Of a stretch of DNA of 64,000 bases, positions 34,926-42,462 are shown piece by piece. A program made the position numbers and the translations under genes. Location: contig CAIOGO010000022.1 of assembly GCA_903857865.1 (NCBI GenBank), forward strand, positions 59,176-123,175, given 5' to 3'. Position 1 is the first letter of the stretch; each line of letters begins with the position of its first letter. The notes beneath the pieces are model-generated. The model searched no databases and was not told the origin of the DNA. It saw nothing but the letters and a program-made list of their open reading frames with translations. This DNA is from an uncultured bacterium. Lineage in GTDB: Bacteria > Bipolaricaulota > Bipolaricaulia > UBA7950 > UBA9294.

Positions 34926-36370
34926 CGAGAGACTTCCTTCAAAGCCAGCTCCGTGTCGTGAACCTCGGCCTCGCGTCGTTTGCCGACAGCTTGCGCGCGG
35001 CCGGCGCGCCTGTCGTTCACGTCGACTGGCGGCCGCCGGCCGGCGGCGATCCTGAGCTGGCGCGCATTCTCGACGACTTGCGTTCCGAGGATGGATCCGG
35101 CTGGAGGGAGCCGATTGCGTCGGCGAACGCGGAGGTCGTCGCCAAGCTTCTCGCCGCCGAGCCGCACGTCGTCGGCATCGGCCGCGCCGGCGACGTCGTC
35201 CCGGGCATGACCGACCGCACGATTCTGCACGCCGGCCCGCCGATCGTGTGGGACGCCATGTGCGGCCCGATGCGCGGCGCCGTGATCGGCGGCCTCCTCT
35301 ACGAAGAGCTGGCTGCGTCGCCCGAAGAAGCCGCCGAGCTTGCGGCATCCGGCGAGATCCGCTTCAGCCCGTGCCACCATCACCAGGCCGTCGGCCCCAT
35401 GGCCGGAGTCGTGACGGCGTCGATGCCGGTGTGGATCGTCGAGAACGCCGCGTTCGGCAACCGCGCCTTCTGCACCCTCAACGAGGGTCTCGGCAAGGTT
35501 CTGCGCTACGGCGCGTACTCCGAGGAGGTCTTGGTCCGCCTCGTCTGGATGCGCGACGTGCTTGCGCCCCTTCTCGTCAAAGCGCTCCGGAAGCACGGGC
35601 CGCTCGACCTGCGTAGCCTCCTCGCGCAAGCGCTGCAGATGGGCGACGAGGGTCACAACCGCAATCGGGCTGGCACGTCGCTCGTGATCCGCGAGCTTGC
35701 GCCGCACCTCGTTCGCCTGACCGCGCGGCGCGACGACGTCGCACGCGTCTTCGAGTTCCTGAATGCGAACGACCACTTTTTCCTCAACCTCAGCATGCCG
35801 GCCGCCAAGTGCGCGCTTGACGCTGCAGCCGACGTGCCGGGAAGCTCGCTCGTGACCGTCATGGCGCGCAACGGCGTCGAGTTCGGCATTCGACTCTCCG
35901 GAACCGGCGACCGCTGGTTCACCGCGCCGGCACCACGGGTCGACGGCCTCTACCTTCCCGGTTACAGCGCCGCCGACGCCGCGCCTGACATCGGCGACTC
36001 GGCGATCACCGAAACCGGCGGCTACGGCGGCTTTGCCATGGCCGCCGCGCCCGCCATCGTCCAGTTTGTCGGCGGCAGCCCCGAGAAGGCGCTCGAGACG
36101 ACGCGCCGCATGCGCAAGATCACGCTCGCGGAGAGCAACGCGTACCGCATCCCGGCCCTCGGCTTCCGCGGCACGCCGACCGGCATCGACGTACTGCGCG
36201 TTGTCGAGACGGGCGTCTTGCCCGCCATCAACACCGGCATCGCCCACAAGGAACCCGGCGTCGGCATGGTCGGCGCCGGCCTCGTCATCCCGCCGTTCGA
36301 CTGCTTCGCCCAGGGCGTCAGGGCTTTGGCGAGTTCGCTCCTTCAGCAACCCTCGGAGCGCGCAGACTAG
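34922..36370 (+). CDS. DUF1116 (YlbE/AllG-like) protein
   Basis: 482 aa, starting with an ATGA overlap on fdrA. It has the DUF1116 pattern: WRPPAGGDPEL, VVGIGRAGDVVPGMTDRTILHAGPPI (in part), CGPMRGAVIGG, the His cluster PCHHHQAVGPMAGV and FRGTPTGIDVLRVVETG near the end. In E. coli the relative is a subunit of oxamic transcarbamylase with FdrA. Here fdrA and this gene follow a molybdenum hydroxylase, suggesting one pathway from an N-heterocycle to a carbamoyl intermediate. The exact reaction is inferred from E. coli. Confidence 0.85.
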   Translation: MTRDFLQSQLRVVNLGLASFADSLRAAGAPVVHVDWRPPAGGDPELARILDDLRSEDGSGWREPIASANAEVVAKLLAAEPHVVGIGRAGDVVPGMTDRTILHAGPPIVWDAMCGPMRGAVIGGLLYEELAASPEEAAELAASGEIRFSPCHHHQAVGPMAGVVTASMPVWIVENAAFGNRAFCTLNEGLGKVLRYGAYSEEVLVRLVWMRDVLAPLLVKALRKHGPLDLRSLLAQALQMGDEGHNRNRAGTSLVIRELAPHLVRLTARRDDVARVFEFLNANDHFFLNLSMPAAKCALDAAADVPGSSLVTVMARNGVEFGIRLSGTGDRWFTAPAPRVDGLYLPGYSAADAAPDIGDSAITETGGYGGFAMAAAPAIVQFVGGSPEKALETTRRMRKITLAESNAYRIPALGFRGTPTGIDVLRVVETGVLPAINTGIAHKEPGVGMVGAGLVIPPFDCFAQGVRALASSLLQQPSERAD

Positions 36371-36443: not shown

Positions 36444-37517
36444 ATGGACATGAAATCGGAGTTGTACGAGCTGTGCCAGCGCGTGCCAGACCTGGCCGCG
36501 AAGGTCCGCACCGAGGAGGCTACGAAGCATGGTCTGGTCCTCCCGTTCATCAAAGCCCTCGGCTACAACGTCTTCGATCCCGCCGAGGTGGTCCCTGAGT
36601 TCATAGCCGACATCGGAGAGAAGAAGGGCGAGAAGGTGGATTACGCCATTCTTATGGATGGGAAGCCTATTCTTCTCTTCGAGTGCAAGACCTGCGGCGA
36701 GCAGCTTGAGCCTCAGCGAGCCATACAGCTTCAGCGCTACTTCCAAGGCGTAGCGAGCGTCAGGTTCGGAATTCTCACGGACGGGCTCGTTTATCGATTC
36801 TACTCCGACCTAGAACGCCCAAACGTCATGGACGCGAAACCGTTCCTTGAGATCAATCTCCAGAGCCTTACGGACGATGACGTTGAGCAACTCCGGAGAT
36901 TCTCGAAGCAGTCGTTCAACGTAGCTGACATCCTCGGAACCGCTGGTGCCCTCAAGTACACGCGCGAGATTCGGCAGCTACTGGAGACCGAGTTCGACAC
37001 GCCAAGTGACGACTTTCTCGAGTTCCTGACGCGGCGCGTCTATGGTGGGAACTTCACTAAGGCGGCTCTCGCGCGCTTCGTCCCCATCGTACAGAAGGCA
37101 CTTCGGGAGTTCGTGAACGGCCGAATCACACGCACCCTGGAAGCAGCTAGGGATCTTCAGGCGAGCGGACGCGCCGCGGAAGAGGCTGAGAGTGCGGGTA
37201 CAGGTGAGGAGTTGGTGACGACAAGCCACGAGTTGCAGGGCTACTACATTGTCAAAGCCATCCTGAGTCCCCACGTTGACCTCGGCCGGGTTGCGATCCG
37301 AGATGTCCAGAGCTACTGCGGTATCCTTCTTGACGACAGCAACCGCAAGCCTATCTGCCGACTGCACTCTAACGACCAGAACAAACTCCGGCTAGGCCTT
37401 TTCGATGCTGCGAAGCAGGAGGAACGTGTGCCGCTCCAACGCGTTGACGACATCTACAAGTACGCTGACCGCATTCGAGAGGTCGTGCGGAGCTACGATT
37501 CGCAGGAGAAGGTGTGA
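36444..37517 (+). CDS. HsdR N-terminal-domain (type I restriction nuclease-like) protein
   Basis: 357 aa. The first 170 residues match the HsdR_N nuclease domain: TEEATKHGLVLPFIKALGYNVFDP, then the PD-(D/E)XK core EKVDYAILMDGKPILLFECK with D, E and K in place, then RYFQGVASVRFGILTDG. There is no helicase part. The C-terminal half is helical with a late beta region of unknown function. Solitary proteins of this kind are common in bacterial genomes and prophages; a defence role is plausible but unproven. It sits between DUF1116 and the cyclase gene and breaks what looks like a single catabolic string. GGTGAGGTAG precedes the ATG. Confidence 0.75.
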   Translation: MDMKSELYELCQRVPDLAAKVRTEEATKHGLVLPFIKALGYNVFDPAEVVPEFIADIGEKKGEKVDYAILMDGKPILLFECKTCGEQLEPQRAIQLQRYFQGVASVRFGILTDGLVYRFYSDLERPNVMDAKPFLEINLQSLTDDDVEQLRRFSKQSFNVADILGTAGALKYTREIRQLLETEFDTPSDDFLEFLTRRVYGGNFTKAALARFVPIVQKALREFVNGRITRTLEAARDLQASGRAAEEAESAGTGEELVTTSHELQGYYIVKAILSPHVDLGRVAIRDVQSYCGILLDDSNRKPICRLHSNDQNKLRLGLFDAAKQEERVPLQRVDDIYKYADRIREVVRSYDSQEKV

Positions 37518-37659: not shown

Positions 37660-38529
37660 ATGAAACTCATCGATCTGACGATCCCTCTCTCGATCGCCAC
37701 GCCGCCGTGGCCGACCTACGAGCCCCTGCAGGTGAAGTACTTCAAGCGGCTCGCGCCCAATGGCGCGAACGGGCAACTCGTCACGCACTCGAACCACGTC
37801 GGCACGCACCTCGACGGCGAGATCCACTTCTACACCCCGGGCAAGGACATTGCCCAGCTCAGCCTTGACTTCCTCGTTCACGAGGGCGTCATCGTCGACC
37901 TCTCCGACGCCGTCGGCGACTACGACATCTACACGTCCGCGATGATCGAGGAACGTGTCGAGGTGAAGGAAGGCGACATCCTCATCCTCCACACCGGCTA
38001 CCACCACTACGGCTGGGACCAGCCGACGGCTGACGAAGTGCGGTACATGGTCAAGCACCCCGGACCCGACCGCGAGTTTGCGCTGTGGTGCCGCGAGAAG
38101 AAGATTCGCTGGATCGGCGTCGACTGCGGCTCGGCCGACCACCCGATGAACACCATCATCCGTGACTGGATGCCGCGCCAAGCGAAGGAAGCCGACGCTC
38201 ACTTCCGCGCCAAGTACGGCCAGCCGCTGGCCGAGCGGTTCGACCCCGGCAAGTACCAGCTCATGCACATCGAGCTCTTCTGCCACGGCATCATTCACGC
38301 CGAGTGCCTCGGCGGCGACATCGACCTGCTCCTCAATCAGCGCGCTGTCATCGGCTGCTTCCCGTGGCGTTTCGTCGACGGCGAAAGCTCGATCGCGCGC
38401 ATCGTCGCCATGGTCGATGACGACCGCCACGCCGAGCTGATGCAGATCAAGTCCGAGTGCGTCTTGACCAAGCACGGCGACGTCGCCGGAGCGAAGAATC
38501 CACAGTTGCATGAGGTCGGGCGAACGTAG
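37660..38529 (+). CDS. Cyclase-family (kynurenine formamidase-like) metal hydrolase
   Basis: 289 aa, cytosolic. The cyclase-family signature HVGTHLDGEIHF is at about residues 46-57, giving the His/Asp metal ligands; LIDLTIPLS opens the protein as usual and WIGVDCGSADHPMN follows. These enzymes open cyclic or N-formyl amides. It is longer than the paralogue at 57550 (211 aa), with an inserted region after residue 120. CCAGGAGGTAAGGCA precedes the ATG. Its position after the molybdenum hydroxylase, FdrA and DUF1116 genes suggests ring opening in the same pathway. The stop codon lies in a perfect 10-bp stem. Confidence 0.85.
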   Translation: MKLIDLTIPLSIATPPWPTYEPLQVKYFKRLAPNGANGQLVTHSNHVGTHLDGEIHFYTPGKDIAQLSLDFLVHEGVIVDLSDAVGDYDIYTSAMIEERVEVKEGDILILHTGYHHYGWDQPTADEVRYMVKHPGPDREFALWCREKKIRWIGVDCGSADHPMNTIIRDWMPRQAKEADAHFRAKYGQPLAERFDPGKYQLMHIELFCHGIIHAECLGGDIDLLLNQRAVIGCFPWRFVDGESSIARIVAMVDDDRHAELMQIKSECVLTKHGDVAGAKNPQLHEVGRT

Positions 38530-38749
38530 GCGTTGCCTACGTTCGCCTAGGGCAGAAGCTGGTCTTCGGTTGCTTCTGCTGGACGCACGTAGCCAGAGCC
38601 TCTAGCGGAAGCATCACAGCTCATTGCTTCCGCCCCAGGTGAAGGCCAGTCTCGTTCGGGCCTTCACCCGTGTGGCTAGGGGTCGAAGGCTGCTCGACGG
38701 CGCGCGGGGCGAGGAGCTAGGGCGGAAGCCGATGAGTGGCTGCTTCCGC
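38521..38749. repeat. Tandem array of five to six hairpins
   Basis: Successive stems: CGAACGTAGG/CCTACGTTCG (38521-38545), GCAGAAGC/GCTTCTGC (38552-38579), GCGGAAGC/GCTTCCGC (38605-38633), GGTGAAGGCC/GGCCTTCACC (38638-38668), a weak GTCGA stem near 38683, and GCGGAAGC/GCTTCCGC (38722-38749). Units lie about 30-55 bp apart, and most are preceded by CTAG or CTAGGG. Stem sequences differ while the layout is kept. The array fills most of the gap between the cyclase and radical SAM genes; no gene is seen in it. Confidence 0.75.
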
Positions 38750-38923
38750 GCTCAGCGGGAGTCGAGGTGATGCACATCACAGTCGCGGACAGATCTCCAG
38801 GACGTGACGTGCATCACGTCCGCGCCGCTTCTGCTCAGCGTGATGCGCATCACGCAATGGATGTCGCCACGGTGGGGGGCAGATGCTGTATCGGATGCCA
38901 AGAGTAAAGATTTGACCCCGGCG
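38716..38923 (+). repeat. Flanking repeat, copy 1
   Basis: It begins GCTAGGGCGGAAGCC and ends AGAGTAAAGATTTGACCCCGG (in part). It contains three GTGAyG-yr-CATCAC palindromes at 38767-38780, 38804-38817 and 38840-38853. A diverged second copy in the same orientation lies at 42287-42449. The TGACCCC end is shared with the ends of the RAYT element at 40754-41664. Confidence 0.7.
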
Positions 38924-38962
38924 CCCTTTGCGGAGAGGAGGGGAACAAGATATCCTTCAGGT

Positions 38963-40570
38963 ATGCCTGATGGCGAGAATGGTGATCTGTCTCGTGTAAC
39001 TCGGGTGTCCCTTCGCAACAAGCATAGCGCACCGAGTGAGAGAGAGGCCTCGGCGCGGAGGAAGTTCTACGTGCCGTCAAGGTACAACCACTTTCTCCGT
39101 GACGGGGACCGCTGGCTCGGTGCCAACCTGCTGTCCGGGGCTGTGATGAACCTGCGGGACGATGACTGCGCGCTCGTTCATCGCCTCTTGGCAATGAAGG
39201 TCAGACCACGCCAGCTCCCTGAGCGGGTGCTCTATGACATGCTCGTCAAGTCTCGTTTTCTCGTTCCGGCGGACTCTGATGAGACTGCGTACTTGAAACA
39301 GCTGTTTGCGGTTGGAAAGCAGTGCCGGGTAGGGTTCTCGCTGGGTCTTGTCGTCACGTTGGCGTGCAACTTCAGGTGCGTCTACTGCTATCAGGACCAT
39401 CGTCGCGCGATCATGGGTACCGACGTGCAGGACGCTGTCATGGCTCTGCTCAGGAAAGCGCTGCCGGGGAAGGAACACTTCACGGCATCGTGGTTCGGCG
39501 GTGAGCCACTGTTGAAGCCCAGGGTGATCACCGACCTCGGGCGACGGATGATTCAGTTGTGTGACTCTCTGGGTGTGAACTACGACTGCGTGTTAACGAC
39601 AAACGGCTATTTGCTCACACGAGCCAACATCGCGATGCTGGCAGCCGGCCGAGTCAGCCACATTCAGATCACCTTGGACGGACCGCGCGAGTTGCACGAC
39701 GTCACTCGACATCTCCAGGACGGGTCGGGCACCTATGAGGTCATCATGGCGAACCTCGGGAATCTGGTGAGGACTCTGCCTGAGGTGCCGATAACCATTC
39801 GCTGTAACATAACTGCCAGCTCCATGGCCGCCGGCGAGCACGCATGGAGCAGGCTTCTGTCGGACTTGGAGCCGTACAGGCGGTCGGTCTCGCTCACCAT
39901 TTGCCCGGCAATTCCGAGCAGGACGTCAAACGCGCACTGCATATCGAAGAGCCAGTTCGGGGATTTCTATGGCCACGTATCGACGATGATGGAGGAGAGA
40001 GGCTTCAGAGTAGCTTCGGATGGGCCCTCCCCAGGCGCCGTCTCCTGCGGCGCCATCCCGAGGCTGAACTGGCTCATAGGCCCTACCGGGCATGTCTCCA
40101 AGTGCACGGTGGGAGCGGACGAAACGGACGGCTATCTCGGGCGACTTGGGCCGGACGGCACGATCGACCTCTCAGCCGAGGCAGCGAGATGGCTGAATTT
40201 CTCACCGTTTCGTCTCAAGAAGTGTCGTGAATGCAGTGTTCTTCCCCTCTGCATGGGAGGCTGTGTGATTGTTCCATTTGACGATCCGCACGTAGACAGA
40301 TGTGACATCAAGACTAACGTGCTGATGTATGTGAAGAGCAACCTACCCAGAAAGGAGGTGATTGATATGACCGTACCGCAGTTCAACCTTGAGCGCGTGG
40401 AGAAAGCTCTCGAACAAAGCGCGACGGAGTACTACACGAGCCTGTTTGTTCAAGCGGGCATCCCTAAGGATGTTGCCTCGAAGGCAGCAATGGTGTGCGC
40501 CACTAACAAGTGCAAGGGGCCTGGCTTCCAGCCTGGTGGCCAGGCTCTACAGGCGCTCGTAACGACCTGA
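38963..40570 (+). CDS. Radical SAM/SPASM peptide maturase with C-terminal precursor-like extension
   Basis: 535 aa from the ATG at 38963. The N-terminal region FYVPSRYNHFLRDGDRWLGANLLSGA is typical of peptide-modifying SPASM enzymes. The radical SAM cluster motif is CNFRCVYC at about residues 135-142, and FGGEPLL and TTNGYLL follow. The SPASM domain has C-x-AIPRLNWLIGPTGHVSKC and CRECSVLPLCMGGC, ligands for auxiliary 4Fe-4S clusters. The enzyme should end soon after DRCDIKTNVLMYVKSNL, but no stop follows; the frame runs on through a 67-residue peptide with its own ribosome binding site. The start is uncertain (GTG at 39005 is an alternative). It lies between two direct repeats, suggesting acquisition. 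Confidence 0.85.
   Translation: MPDGENGDLSRVTRVSLRNKHSAPSEREASARRKFYVPSRYNHFLRDGDRWLGANLLSGAVMNLRDDDCALVHRLLAMKVRPRQLPERVLYDMLVKSRFLVPADSDETAYLKQLFAVGKQCRVGFSLGLVVTLACNFRCVYCYQDHRRAIMGTDVQDAVMALLRKALPGKEHFTASWFGGEPLLKPRVITDLGRRMIQLCDSLGVNYDCVLTTNGYLLTRANIAMLAAGRVSHIQITLDGPRELHDVTRHLQDGSGTYEVIMANLGNLVRTLPEVPITIRCNITASSMAAGEHAWSRLLSDLEPYRRSVSLTICPAIPSRTSNAHCISKSQFGDFYGHVSTMMEERGFRVASDGPSPGAVSCGAIPRLNWLIGPTGHVSKCTVGADETDGYLGRLGPDGTIDLSAEAARWLNFSPFRLKKCRECSVLPLCMGGCVIVPFDDPHVDRCDIKTNVLMYVKSNLPRKEVIDMTVPQFNLERVEKALEQSATEYYTSLFVQAGIPKDVASKAAMVCATNKCKGPGFQPGGQALQALVTT
40349..40362 (+). promoter_or_regulatory. Exceptional internal Shine-Dalgarno
   Basis: AGAAAGGAGGTGAT is complementary to the complete usual 3' end of bacterial 16S rRNA over 14 bases. 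GGAGG ends eight bases before an in-frame ATG at 40367. It lies inside the maturase frame and is the strongest ribosome binding site I saw in the window. Confidence 0.8.
40367..40570 (+). CDS. Candidate RiPP precursor peptide, nested in frame in the maturase gene
   Basis: 67 aa if translated from its own ATG. A leader-like amphipathic first part (FNLERVEKALEQSATEYYTS) is followed by AGIPKDVASKAA and a C-terminal part CATNKCKGPGFQPGGQ (Cys44 and Cys49, Gly/Pro-rich), ending ALQALVTT. This looks like a leader followed by a core with a C-x4-C pair, as in thioether-type peptides made by radical SAM/SPASM enzymes. I know no matching named family. It shares the reading frame and stop of the maturase, so it would be made both as a free peptide and as the C-terminus of the enzyme. 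Function inferred. Confidence 0.6.
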   Translation: MTVPQFNLERVEKALEQSATEYYTSLFVQAGIPKDVASKAAMVCATNKCKGPGFQPGGQALQALVTT

Positions 40571-40606
40571 ACCTGATAGCACAGACCGGAACTCCGCGCA
40601 GGAGGG

Positions 40607-40647
40607 GGAACCGGAGATGATGGCCGGTAATTCTGCCTTCCGGTTCC
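40607..40647 (+). terminator. Hairpin after the maturase/peptide gene
   Basis: Arms GGAACCGGA (40607-40615) and TCCGGTTCC (40639-40647), with CTCCTTGGTCTT after. Likely the end of the maturase transcript, though the T-content is modest. Confidence 0.45.
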
Positions 40648-40679
40648 TCCTTGGTCTTCAACGTCGCAGCAGGATAGGT

Positions 40680-40710
40680 AGCAGCCCGACTTGACGCAAG
40701 TCGGGCTGCT
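40680..40710. repeat. Perfect 13-bp stem hairpin
   Basis: AGCAGCCCGACTT (40680-40692), loop GACGC, and its exact complement (40698-40710), 44 bp before the RAYT left end. There is no T-run. It could be a second terminator or a REP-type target of the transposase. Confidence 0.6.
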
Positions 40711-40753
40711 GGGTGACGCAGCGAGAGGGGGCTACCATTGGGCGTTGGGCGAT

Positions 40754-41664
40754 GGGGTCAGGTCTTGTAATCGCGTACTGTCTGTGCTAGGCTGGCGTCA
40801 TGGCTCGCCCCCTCCGGATTGAGTACCCCGGCGCTGTCTACCATGTGACCTGTCGCGGCAACGCACGGGAGAAGGTCTTCCTTGTCGATCCCGATCGAGA
40901 GCTCTTCCTTGAAGTGTTCGCGGAAGTTGTAGAGCGCTTTAGCTGGCGCTGCCATGCGTACTGTCAGATGACGAACCACTACCACCTGCTGATCGAGACG
41001 ATTGAGCCCACCCTGTCGCATGGCATGCGACAACTGAACGGTGTCTACACCCAGGAGTTCAACCGCCGGCATCGTCGCACGGGACATGTCTTCCAGGGAC
41101 GTTTCAAAGCCATTCTCGTCGAGCGCGACGCCTATCTCCTCGAGCTTGGACGCTATGTTGTCCTGAATCCCGTTCGCGCCAAGATGGTGCGGAGGGCGCA
41201 AGACTGGCCGTGGTCAAGCTTCCGTGCGACGGCCGGCCTTGAGGACGTGCCCTTCTTCCTCGCCACAGACTGGATTCTCGAGCAGTTCGCGACATCGAAG
41301 GCGAAAGCGCAGAAGGCATACCGCAAGTTCGTCTCGGAAGGCCGTGGCGTCCCGGTGTGGGAGCACCTCCGCGGGCAGATCTACCTCGGCAGCGACACGT
41401 TCATCGAGGAACACGCGCCGGAACTGCCTCCAGTTCGCGAGATTCCGAAGACCCAGGTCCAGGTCCGTCGGCCGCCGCTCTCGGCCATTGTTGCCGACCC
41501 GAAAGACGCCGCGAGCATTGCACGCGCATACATCGAGCACCACTACGCCCAGCACGAGATCGCCAGCCACCTCGGCGTTCACTACTCGACGATCAGTCGA
41601 CGACTCCGAGCCTCCTGCGTGCCGCGGACTCGCAACATGGTACGCGATTACAAGACCTGACCCC
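40754..41664 (+). mobile_element. REP-associated tyrosine transposase element with 25-bp inverted ends
   Basis: A perfect 25-bp inverted repeat bounds the element: left end 40754-40778 starting GGGGTCAGGTCTTG, right end 41640-41664 ending CAAGACCTGACCCC. The transposase stop codon lies in the right end. Directly beyond the right end the remaining part of a HigB toxin frame begins, so insertion or an associated deletion removed the toxin's 5' half; no matching toxin sequence is left of the element. Confidence 0.8.
40800..41660 (+). CDS. REP-associated tyrosine transposase (Y1/HUH family)
   Basis: 286 aa, single-strand DNA transposase. It starts MARPLRIEYPGAVYHVTCRGN, the standard RAYT opening. 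The HUH-type histidines are His60 and His62 in MTNHYHLLIE, and the region with the catalytic tyrosine follows around RYVVLNPVRAKMV. The C-terminal 80 residues contain a helix-turn-helix-like EIASHLGVHYSTISRRL. Such enzymes are linked to spread of REP hairpins in bacterial chromosomes. The gene is intact and may be active. Confidence 0.92.
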   Translation: MARPLRIEYPGAVYHVTCRGNAREKVFLVDPDRELFLEVFAEVVERFSWRCHAYCQMTNHYHLLIETIEPTLSHGMRQLNGVYTQEFNRRHRRTGHVFQGRFKAILVERDAYLLELGRYVVLNPVRAKMVRRAQDWPWSSFRATAGLEDVPFFLATDWILEQFATSKAKAQKAYRKFVSEGRGVPVWEHLRGQIYLGSDTFIEEHAPELPPVREIPKTQVQVRRPPLSAIVADPKDAASIARAYIEHHYAQHEIASHLGVHYSTISRRLRASCVPRTRNMVRDYKT

Positions 41665-42189: not shown

Positions 42190-42286
42190 CGGCTGCGAAG
42201 GGGGCCGCCCTATCAGAGTATCCAATCCTCAGCCCAGACGATGGTGTTGGGGGTGAAGGGCTACTCGGCGTTGTGGCCCGGCCGTA

Positions 42287-42449
42287 GCTAGGGCGGAAGC
42301 CGACGAGTGGCTGCTTCCGTGTGCTCGATAGAGGACGGAGGTAATGCGTATCACGTTCGCTGAAGGTTACGTGCGTCACACGATGGACGGCGCCACGGTG
42401 AGTGGCAGATGGTGCATCGGATGCCAAGAGTAAAGATCTGACCCCGGCG
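42287..42449 (+). repeat. Flanking repeat, copy 2
   Basis: Starts GCTAGGGCGGAAGCCGACGA and ends AGTAAAGATCTGACCCCGG, matching copy 1 at both ends. It holds two decayed palindromes, GTAATGCGTATCAC (42341-42354) and GTTACGTGCGTCAC (42366-42379). The hairpin stem GGAAGC/GCTTCC is retained. It closes a 3.5-kb segment containing the maturase, RAYT and HigBA remnant. Confidence 0.7.
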
Positions 42450-42462
42450 TCCCGGCCGAGTC

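Follow-up and report, generated by a model that had tools for sequence, protein, structure and literature searches.

In the window, by which we mean the whole 64,000-nucleotide stretch of DNA that was analysed, the frame of a radical SAM/SPASM peptide maturase continues, uninterrupted by a stop, through a 67-residue tail, and the start codon of this tail lies behind the strongest predicted ribosome site of the window. On our analysis the tail most likely serves as the precursor of the maturase, made mainly from the internal start, with read-through giving a tethered copy. Fused or split, it is the 67-residue ORF that we would put first among precursor candidates of this maturase.

One open frame with two coding parts

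Translation of the frame (Table 1) yields 535 residues without a stop. The earlier note had claimed exactly such an uninterrupted frame between maturase and peptide, together with a peptide length of 67 residues and a C-x4-C, and translation agrees on each point. Codon usage in the tail scores +0.33 per codon in the proposed frame vs -0.53 and -0.51 in the other two, and the maturase frame scores as coding right up to the ribosome site and then on through the tail.

Table 1. Features of the maturase locus and its surroundings (window positions).
Feature	Position	Strand	Basis or remark
Whole open frame (maturase + tail)	38963..40570	+	ATG as in the earlier note; true start probably downstream
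Radical SAM/SPASM peptide maturase, 432 residues	39071..40366	+	start by site of -9.5 and homologue alignment
CxxxCxxC radical SAM cluster motif, C135/C139/C142	39365..39388	+	invariant columns; PF04055 6.7e-15
SPASM region: C362, C381, C421, C424, C430, C434; further C448	40046..40306	+	alignment of relatives
Shine-Dalgarno sequence, 14/14 complementary to own 16S end	40349..40362	+	pairing
TGA codons of the two other frames: 40359 (+1), 40363 (+2)	40359..40365	+	sequence
67-residue candidate precursor peptide	40367..40570	+	translation, coding score, AlphaFold2
C-x4-C of putative core (peptide Cys44, Cys49)	40496..40513	+	translation
REP-associated tyrosine transposase	40800..41660	+	NF047646 above cut-off
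Transposase inverted terminal repeats, 25-nt, perfect	40754-40778, 41640-41664		
Repeat, left copy, bordering maturase	38715..38926	+	repeat comparison
Repeat, right copy	42286..42452	+	pieces 97% and 82-86% identical

The earlier note had placed the start of the maturase at ATG 38963, where the ribosome site is poor (-4.0 kcal/mol). From its sequence GTG 39071 is more likely to be the true start: a well-spaced GGAGG gives a site of -9.5 kcal/mol, and the resulting reading MPSRYNHF resembles the N-termini M..SKYN of relatives in the alignment. Counted from this GTG, 432 residues precede the tail methionine, compared with 438 positions in the TIGR04463 model and 441 residues in one relative (L002). 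The last cysteine of the SPASM region is residue 448 in long-frame numbering; relatives in the alignment end 11 to about 100 residues past its equivalent. Because every SPASM cysteine falls ahead of residue 449 and a length of 432 residues is in line with homologues, the maturase is, as judged from these comparisons, complete without the tail, and the end near residue 460 given in the earlier note stands.

The assignment as a radical SAM/SPASM maturase was checked in the same way. C135, C139, C142, C362, C381, C421, C424, C430 and C434 form invariant columns in the alignment of relatives, so that both the CxxxCxxC motif and the SPASM cysteines read earlier from the letters are confirmed, and PF04055 matches at 6.7e-15. 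The top NCBIfam models are all RiPP maturases, namely TIGR04463 (213.8 bits, 3.8e-63), Clo7bot (TIGR04334; 188.2 bits) and CefB (NF038107; 145.8 bits). These families share the domain layout, the cluster cysteines and a similar enzyme length with the window's maturase, but its scores fall far under their curated cut-offs of 525, 600 and 600, and at 213.8 bits it lies outside TIGR04463 itself. Viperin profiles (PADLOC) also matched, though less strongly than the maturase families, and we disregarded them.

An AlphaFold2 (AF2) model was computed on a 12-sequence alignment (mean pLDDT 70.7, pTM 0.63). Its catalytic core is confident, and the nearest solved fold is CteB (5why; Foldseek E 1.6e-17). 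At 36-120, where an N-terminal leader-binding (RRE-like) domain would be expected, the model predicts both strands and helices, and as a whole it can be aligned with CteB. The linker 433-480 is of low confidence; helices are predicted at 463-497 and 502-514, the better part being 480-515 with a pLDDT of about 64-79, and the end 516-535 is unstructured at low confidence. For the tail this gives a helical N-terminal part followed by a disordered Gly/Pro end that bears the C-x4-C, and the leader-like helix claimed earlier is recovered as two predicted helices. The picture is compatible with a helical leader and a flexible core behind it; it is weak evidence because the alignment holds no homologues of the tail. 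Taken with sequence and coding score, the model describes a small peptide beside a maturase with a leader-like part and a cysteine-bearing end, as in RiPP systems.

The maturase frame threads between the TGA codons of the two other frames. Since both other frames carry such a TGA, an error of one or two bases within the final maturase codons would make an operon look like a fusion. The locus could thus be an ordinary two-gene operon, its maturase ending at a TGA in or just behind the ribosome site, in which an assembly error or a recent frameshift of this size feigns the fusion, an explanation we regard as unlikely. It has to contend with a recognisable family C-terminus, RCDIKTNVLMYVKS, which continues in the maturase frame to about 40340, and with a positive coding score maintained in that frame up to the site. 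Moreover, there is no long homopolymer in 40313-40357, and the prior chance of an error falling within about 45 bases is small.

The ribosome site of the proposed internal start

The Shine-Dalgarno sequence ahead of ATG 40367 reads AGAAAGGAGGTGAT. The 16S rRNA of this genome (L026) terminates in GGATCACCTCCTTTCT, and hence all 14 bases pair. The claim of complementarity to the whole usual 16S tail therefore holds for the genome's own 16S. The spacing of eight bases given with it is correct for the distance from the GGAGG core to the ATG; the 14-mer as a whole is only 4 bases away. When every ATG, GTG and TTG on both strands of the window was scored for anti-Shine-Dalgarno pairing, the tail start ranked first of 4768 start-like codons with a duplex energy of -23.8 kcal/mol, followed by a site of -17.0. 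Within nine window genes, the best of 226 in-frame start-like codons reaches -13.5 kcal/mol. The same picture emerges from the last 130 codons of 124 radical SAM frames, where apart from the tail start no in-frame site goes beyond -15.1; an internal site of equal strength was found in none of the 123 other frames. The mRNA forms no unusual fold that would mask the site as a hairpin (z -1.25), and 38500-40800 yielded no promoter or terminator evidence.

How much can be built on this site? With the residues LPRKEVID held fixed, equally good pairing arises in 8% of synonymous encodings when codons are drawn by local usage, and in 1.8% when the choice is uniform. The site is therefore exceptional regionally, yet it could be a by-product of those residues, and the argument from site strength depends on the site itself explaining the residue string LPRKEVID. 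Herein lies the case for a rival view: the tail would be an extension of the enzyme's C-terminus with a structural or regulatory role, specific to this lineage, and the site would arise by coincidence from RKEVID and preferred codons. Extensions of 50-100 residues past the last cysteine are in themselves not rare and exist in three relatives (L031, L146 and L147), but their sequences are unlike the tail and its C-x4-C end, and they have no such site. The extension scenario also has to accept that the tail site is the strongest in the window while in-frame codons of window genes stop at -13.5, that the AF2 linker and end are of low confidence and form no packed domain (in a model from a shallow alignment), and that no alternative precursor candidate lies nearby. 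In our judgement it is improbable.

Relatives of the maturase and the genomic setting

A homologue search over genome_contigs, viral contigs, phages, plasmids and about 1,100 genomes from two other phyla returned no close homologues of the whole protein; the best reach about 30-36% identity, and none has the tail. The fusion was found in 1 of the 124 radical SAM frames, in one genome only. Maturases of this kind occur in 11 of 100 genomes of the same phylum, most of them next to a short ORF of 26-39 residues with an exceptional ribosome site and, in all cases, a cysteine. These precursor candidates were picked by position, cysteines and ribosome site, with site energies of -24.6 (L007), -21.3 (L027), -18.2 (L005), -18.1 (L030), -17.2 (L029), -17.1 (L028) and -16.0 kcal/mol (L006). 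In six of these loci (L005, L006, L007, L028, L029 and L030) the peptide ORF precedes the maturase; in L027 it follows directly. None of the five candidate peptides scanned matched a named family. The putative, unnamed peptides of the six upstream cases carry motifs such as CWVYCAGFCIKI, CSVYCSGFCIKI and CCGVICSPYC, and ABC transporter genes lie near several of them. Plasmid-borne relatives likewise have separate Cys-rich peptides adjoining the maturase. The comparison of homologues proposed in the earlier note, for the same extension or a separated peptide gene, thus turned up separate strong-site peptides, in L027 at the equivalent place, but the tail itself in no relative.

L027 deserves closer attention, since direct search ranks its maturase (33% identical) first among the relatives in the phylum. 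The end of this maturase reads CAA GAA AGG GGG TGA AAA TAT ATG, and its TGA is part of the ribosome site. Three codons further on, and in the frame of the maturase, the peptide MTILEVGNDRLAQLSEARSETLATFCNKSGEMFG begins. As in the window, the peptide of L027 and L144 stands directly 3' of the maturase in its frame, behind an exceptional site that overlaps the maturase end; in sequence terms, the window shows the L027 layout minus the stop. The differences are that the TGA inside the site separates two products, that the L027 peptide has 34 residues and no detectable similarity to the tail (no higher than shuffles, p 0.2-0.3), that an ABC transporter follows downstream, and that the maturase has an internal in-frame TGA. 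The operon explanation gains from this comparison, for L027 has just such an arrangement, in which the ribosome site contains a TGA, and none of the other frames among the 124 shows the fusion.

The internal TGA of L027 (- strand, locus positions 1747-1750 approximately; present in L144 too) comes after some 320 codons of the maturase and ahead of the region with the auxiliary-cluster cysteines, and by eye no conserved cysteine aligns with it. A nonsense mutation or an assembly error is therefore likelier than selenocysteine, and this copy of the maturase may be broken or misassembled.

The tail itself stands alone in all comparisons. Against NCBIfam and Pfam, including known RiPP precursor families, it matched no family up to E 1. 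The genome has no second copy or relative of it, the 100 genomes of the phylum no significant relative (best E 0.02), and four chosen genomes none either. Shuffling lent no support to homology with the L027 peptide or the other candidate peptides; the local p of 0.04 against the L029 peptide is uncorrected for seven comparisons. No other small ORF with a comparable ribosome site was found near the window's maturase. The earlier interpretation, a separately made peptide modified by the enzyme, accordingly keeps the support of a complete maturase, an exceptional site and the L027 parallel, but receives none from homology of the tail to any precursor.

The neighbours of the maturase are an HSDR_N-like protein, a cyclase, the transposase, an HTH protein and a GNAT/methyltransferase. 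At 36444-37517 lies the gene for a stand-alone protein with the domain that is N-terminal in the R subunits of type I restriction systems (PF04313); it weakly matches PADLOC mad2. A direct repeat brackets maturase and transposase and occurs elsewhere in the genome only in short pieces; the inverted repeats at 40754-41664 take in the end of the transposase's own coding frame. The low G+C of the maturase stretch (0.59 vs 0.69 near 35000), the flanking repeat copies and the adjoining transposase together suggest that the locus is mobile or recently gained. Unlike its relatives, the maturase has no adjoining transporter or peptidase that would account for processing and export of the peptide; genes for these, if present, would lie farther away.

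A maturase joined to its candidate precursor

Expression of the locus could proceed as follows. Ribosomes would initiate weakly at the 5' end, probably at GTG 39071, and make little maturase. With no stop between the two coding parts, these ribosomes would read on into the tail, so that the maturase would carry, on a flexible linker, a copy of its putative substrate. A second set of ribosomes would load on the very strong internal site and begin at ATG 40367, giving the free 67-residue precursor in excess. Its helical N-terminal part would serve as leader and its Cys/Gly/Pro end as core, which the maturase would cross-link, presumably by a thioether at Cys44 or Cys49. That the tail is the substrate is inferred by analogy with the relatives, and the 67-mer would be translated separately, modified and exported. 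That maturase and precursor share one frame with dual output, the free 67-mer being modified by the maturase, has in our estimate an even chance of being correct. More tentative, and short of an even chance, is the reading as a natural radical SAM maturase-precursor fusion in which a self-tethered enzyme-substrate and a surplus of free precursor are served by the same enzyme.

To our knowledge, the precursor is always a separate gene in known radical SAM RiPP systems, and a search confined to open-licence literature found no published radical SAM maturase fused to its own precursor. The peptide of the TIGR04463, Clo7bot and CefB systems is likewise a separate gene, whereas the window has no intervening stop and a tail without family match. 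CteB, a SCIFF ranthipeptide maturase, makes a thioether on a cysteine of a separate precursor (PMC11002830); it is the nearest solved fold, but identity is about 18%, its precursor is encoded in a separate gene, and a thioether in the product of the window's enzyme is conjectural.

A core peptide and its modifying enzyme do share one polypeptide in the borosins of types I-III (OphMA; PMC8429565). These are a working precedent for an obligate fusion, in which the maturase would act mainly on its own attached core, in cis or as a dimer, and the internal start would be minor. The single continuous frame agrees with such a scheme, and the low-confidence linker of 30-40 residues in the AF2 model might give the end access to the active site. 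Against this, the internal site (-23.8 kcal/mol) is far stronger than that of the maturase (-9.5 or -4.0), which points to surplus free peptide, and no cleavage gene lies nearby; we consider an obligate fusion very unlikely. The borosin enzymes are also fungal methyltransferases without an internal bacterial start, while family profiles identify the window's enzyme as radical SAM/SPASM and not as a borosin N-methyltransferase. The continuous frame would resemble theirs if the tail is a core peptide and no assembly error lies behind the fusion. A precedent for the internal start is Cas11b, a smaller protein made from an internal in-frame start near the 3' end of cas8b (PMC11899642); Cas11b is a complex subunit, whereas the small product proposed here is a putative enzyme substrate.

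Under the preferred reading of a precursor made mainly from its own start and also carried by the maturase, gene finders would report a single long protein at this locus and overlook the peptide. A natural fusion, if real, would give the borosins an equivalent among radical SAM enzymes and would do in nature what engineered leader-enzyme fusions do by design; structural studies would gain a substrate-enzyme unit complete in itself. Such a case would further illustrate how the loss of a stop within a ribosome site, as found in L027, can give rise to a fused enzyme-substrate.
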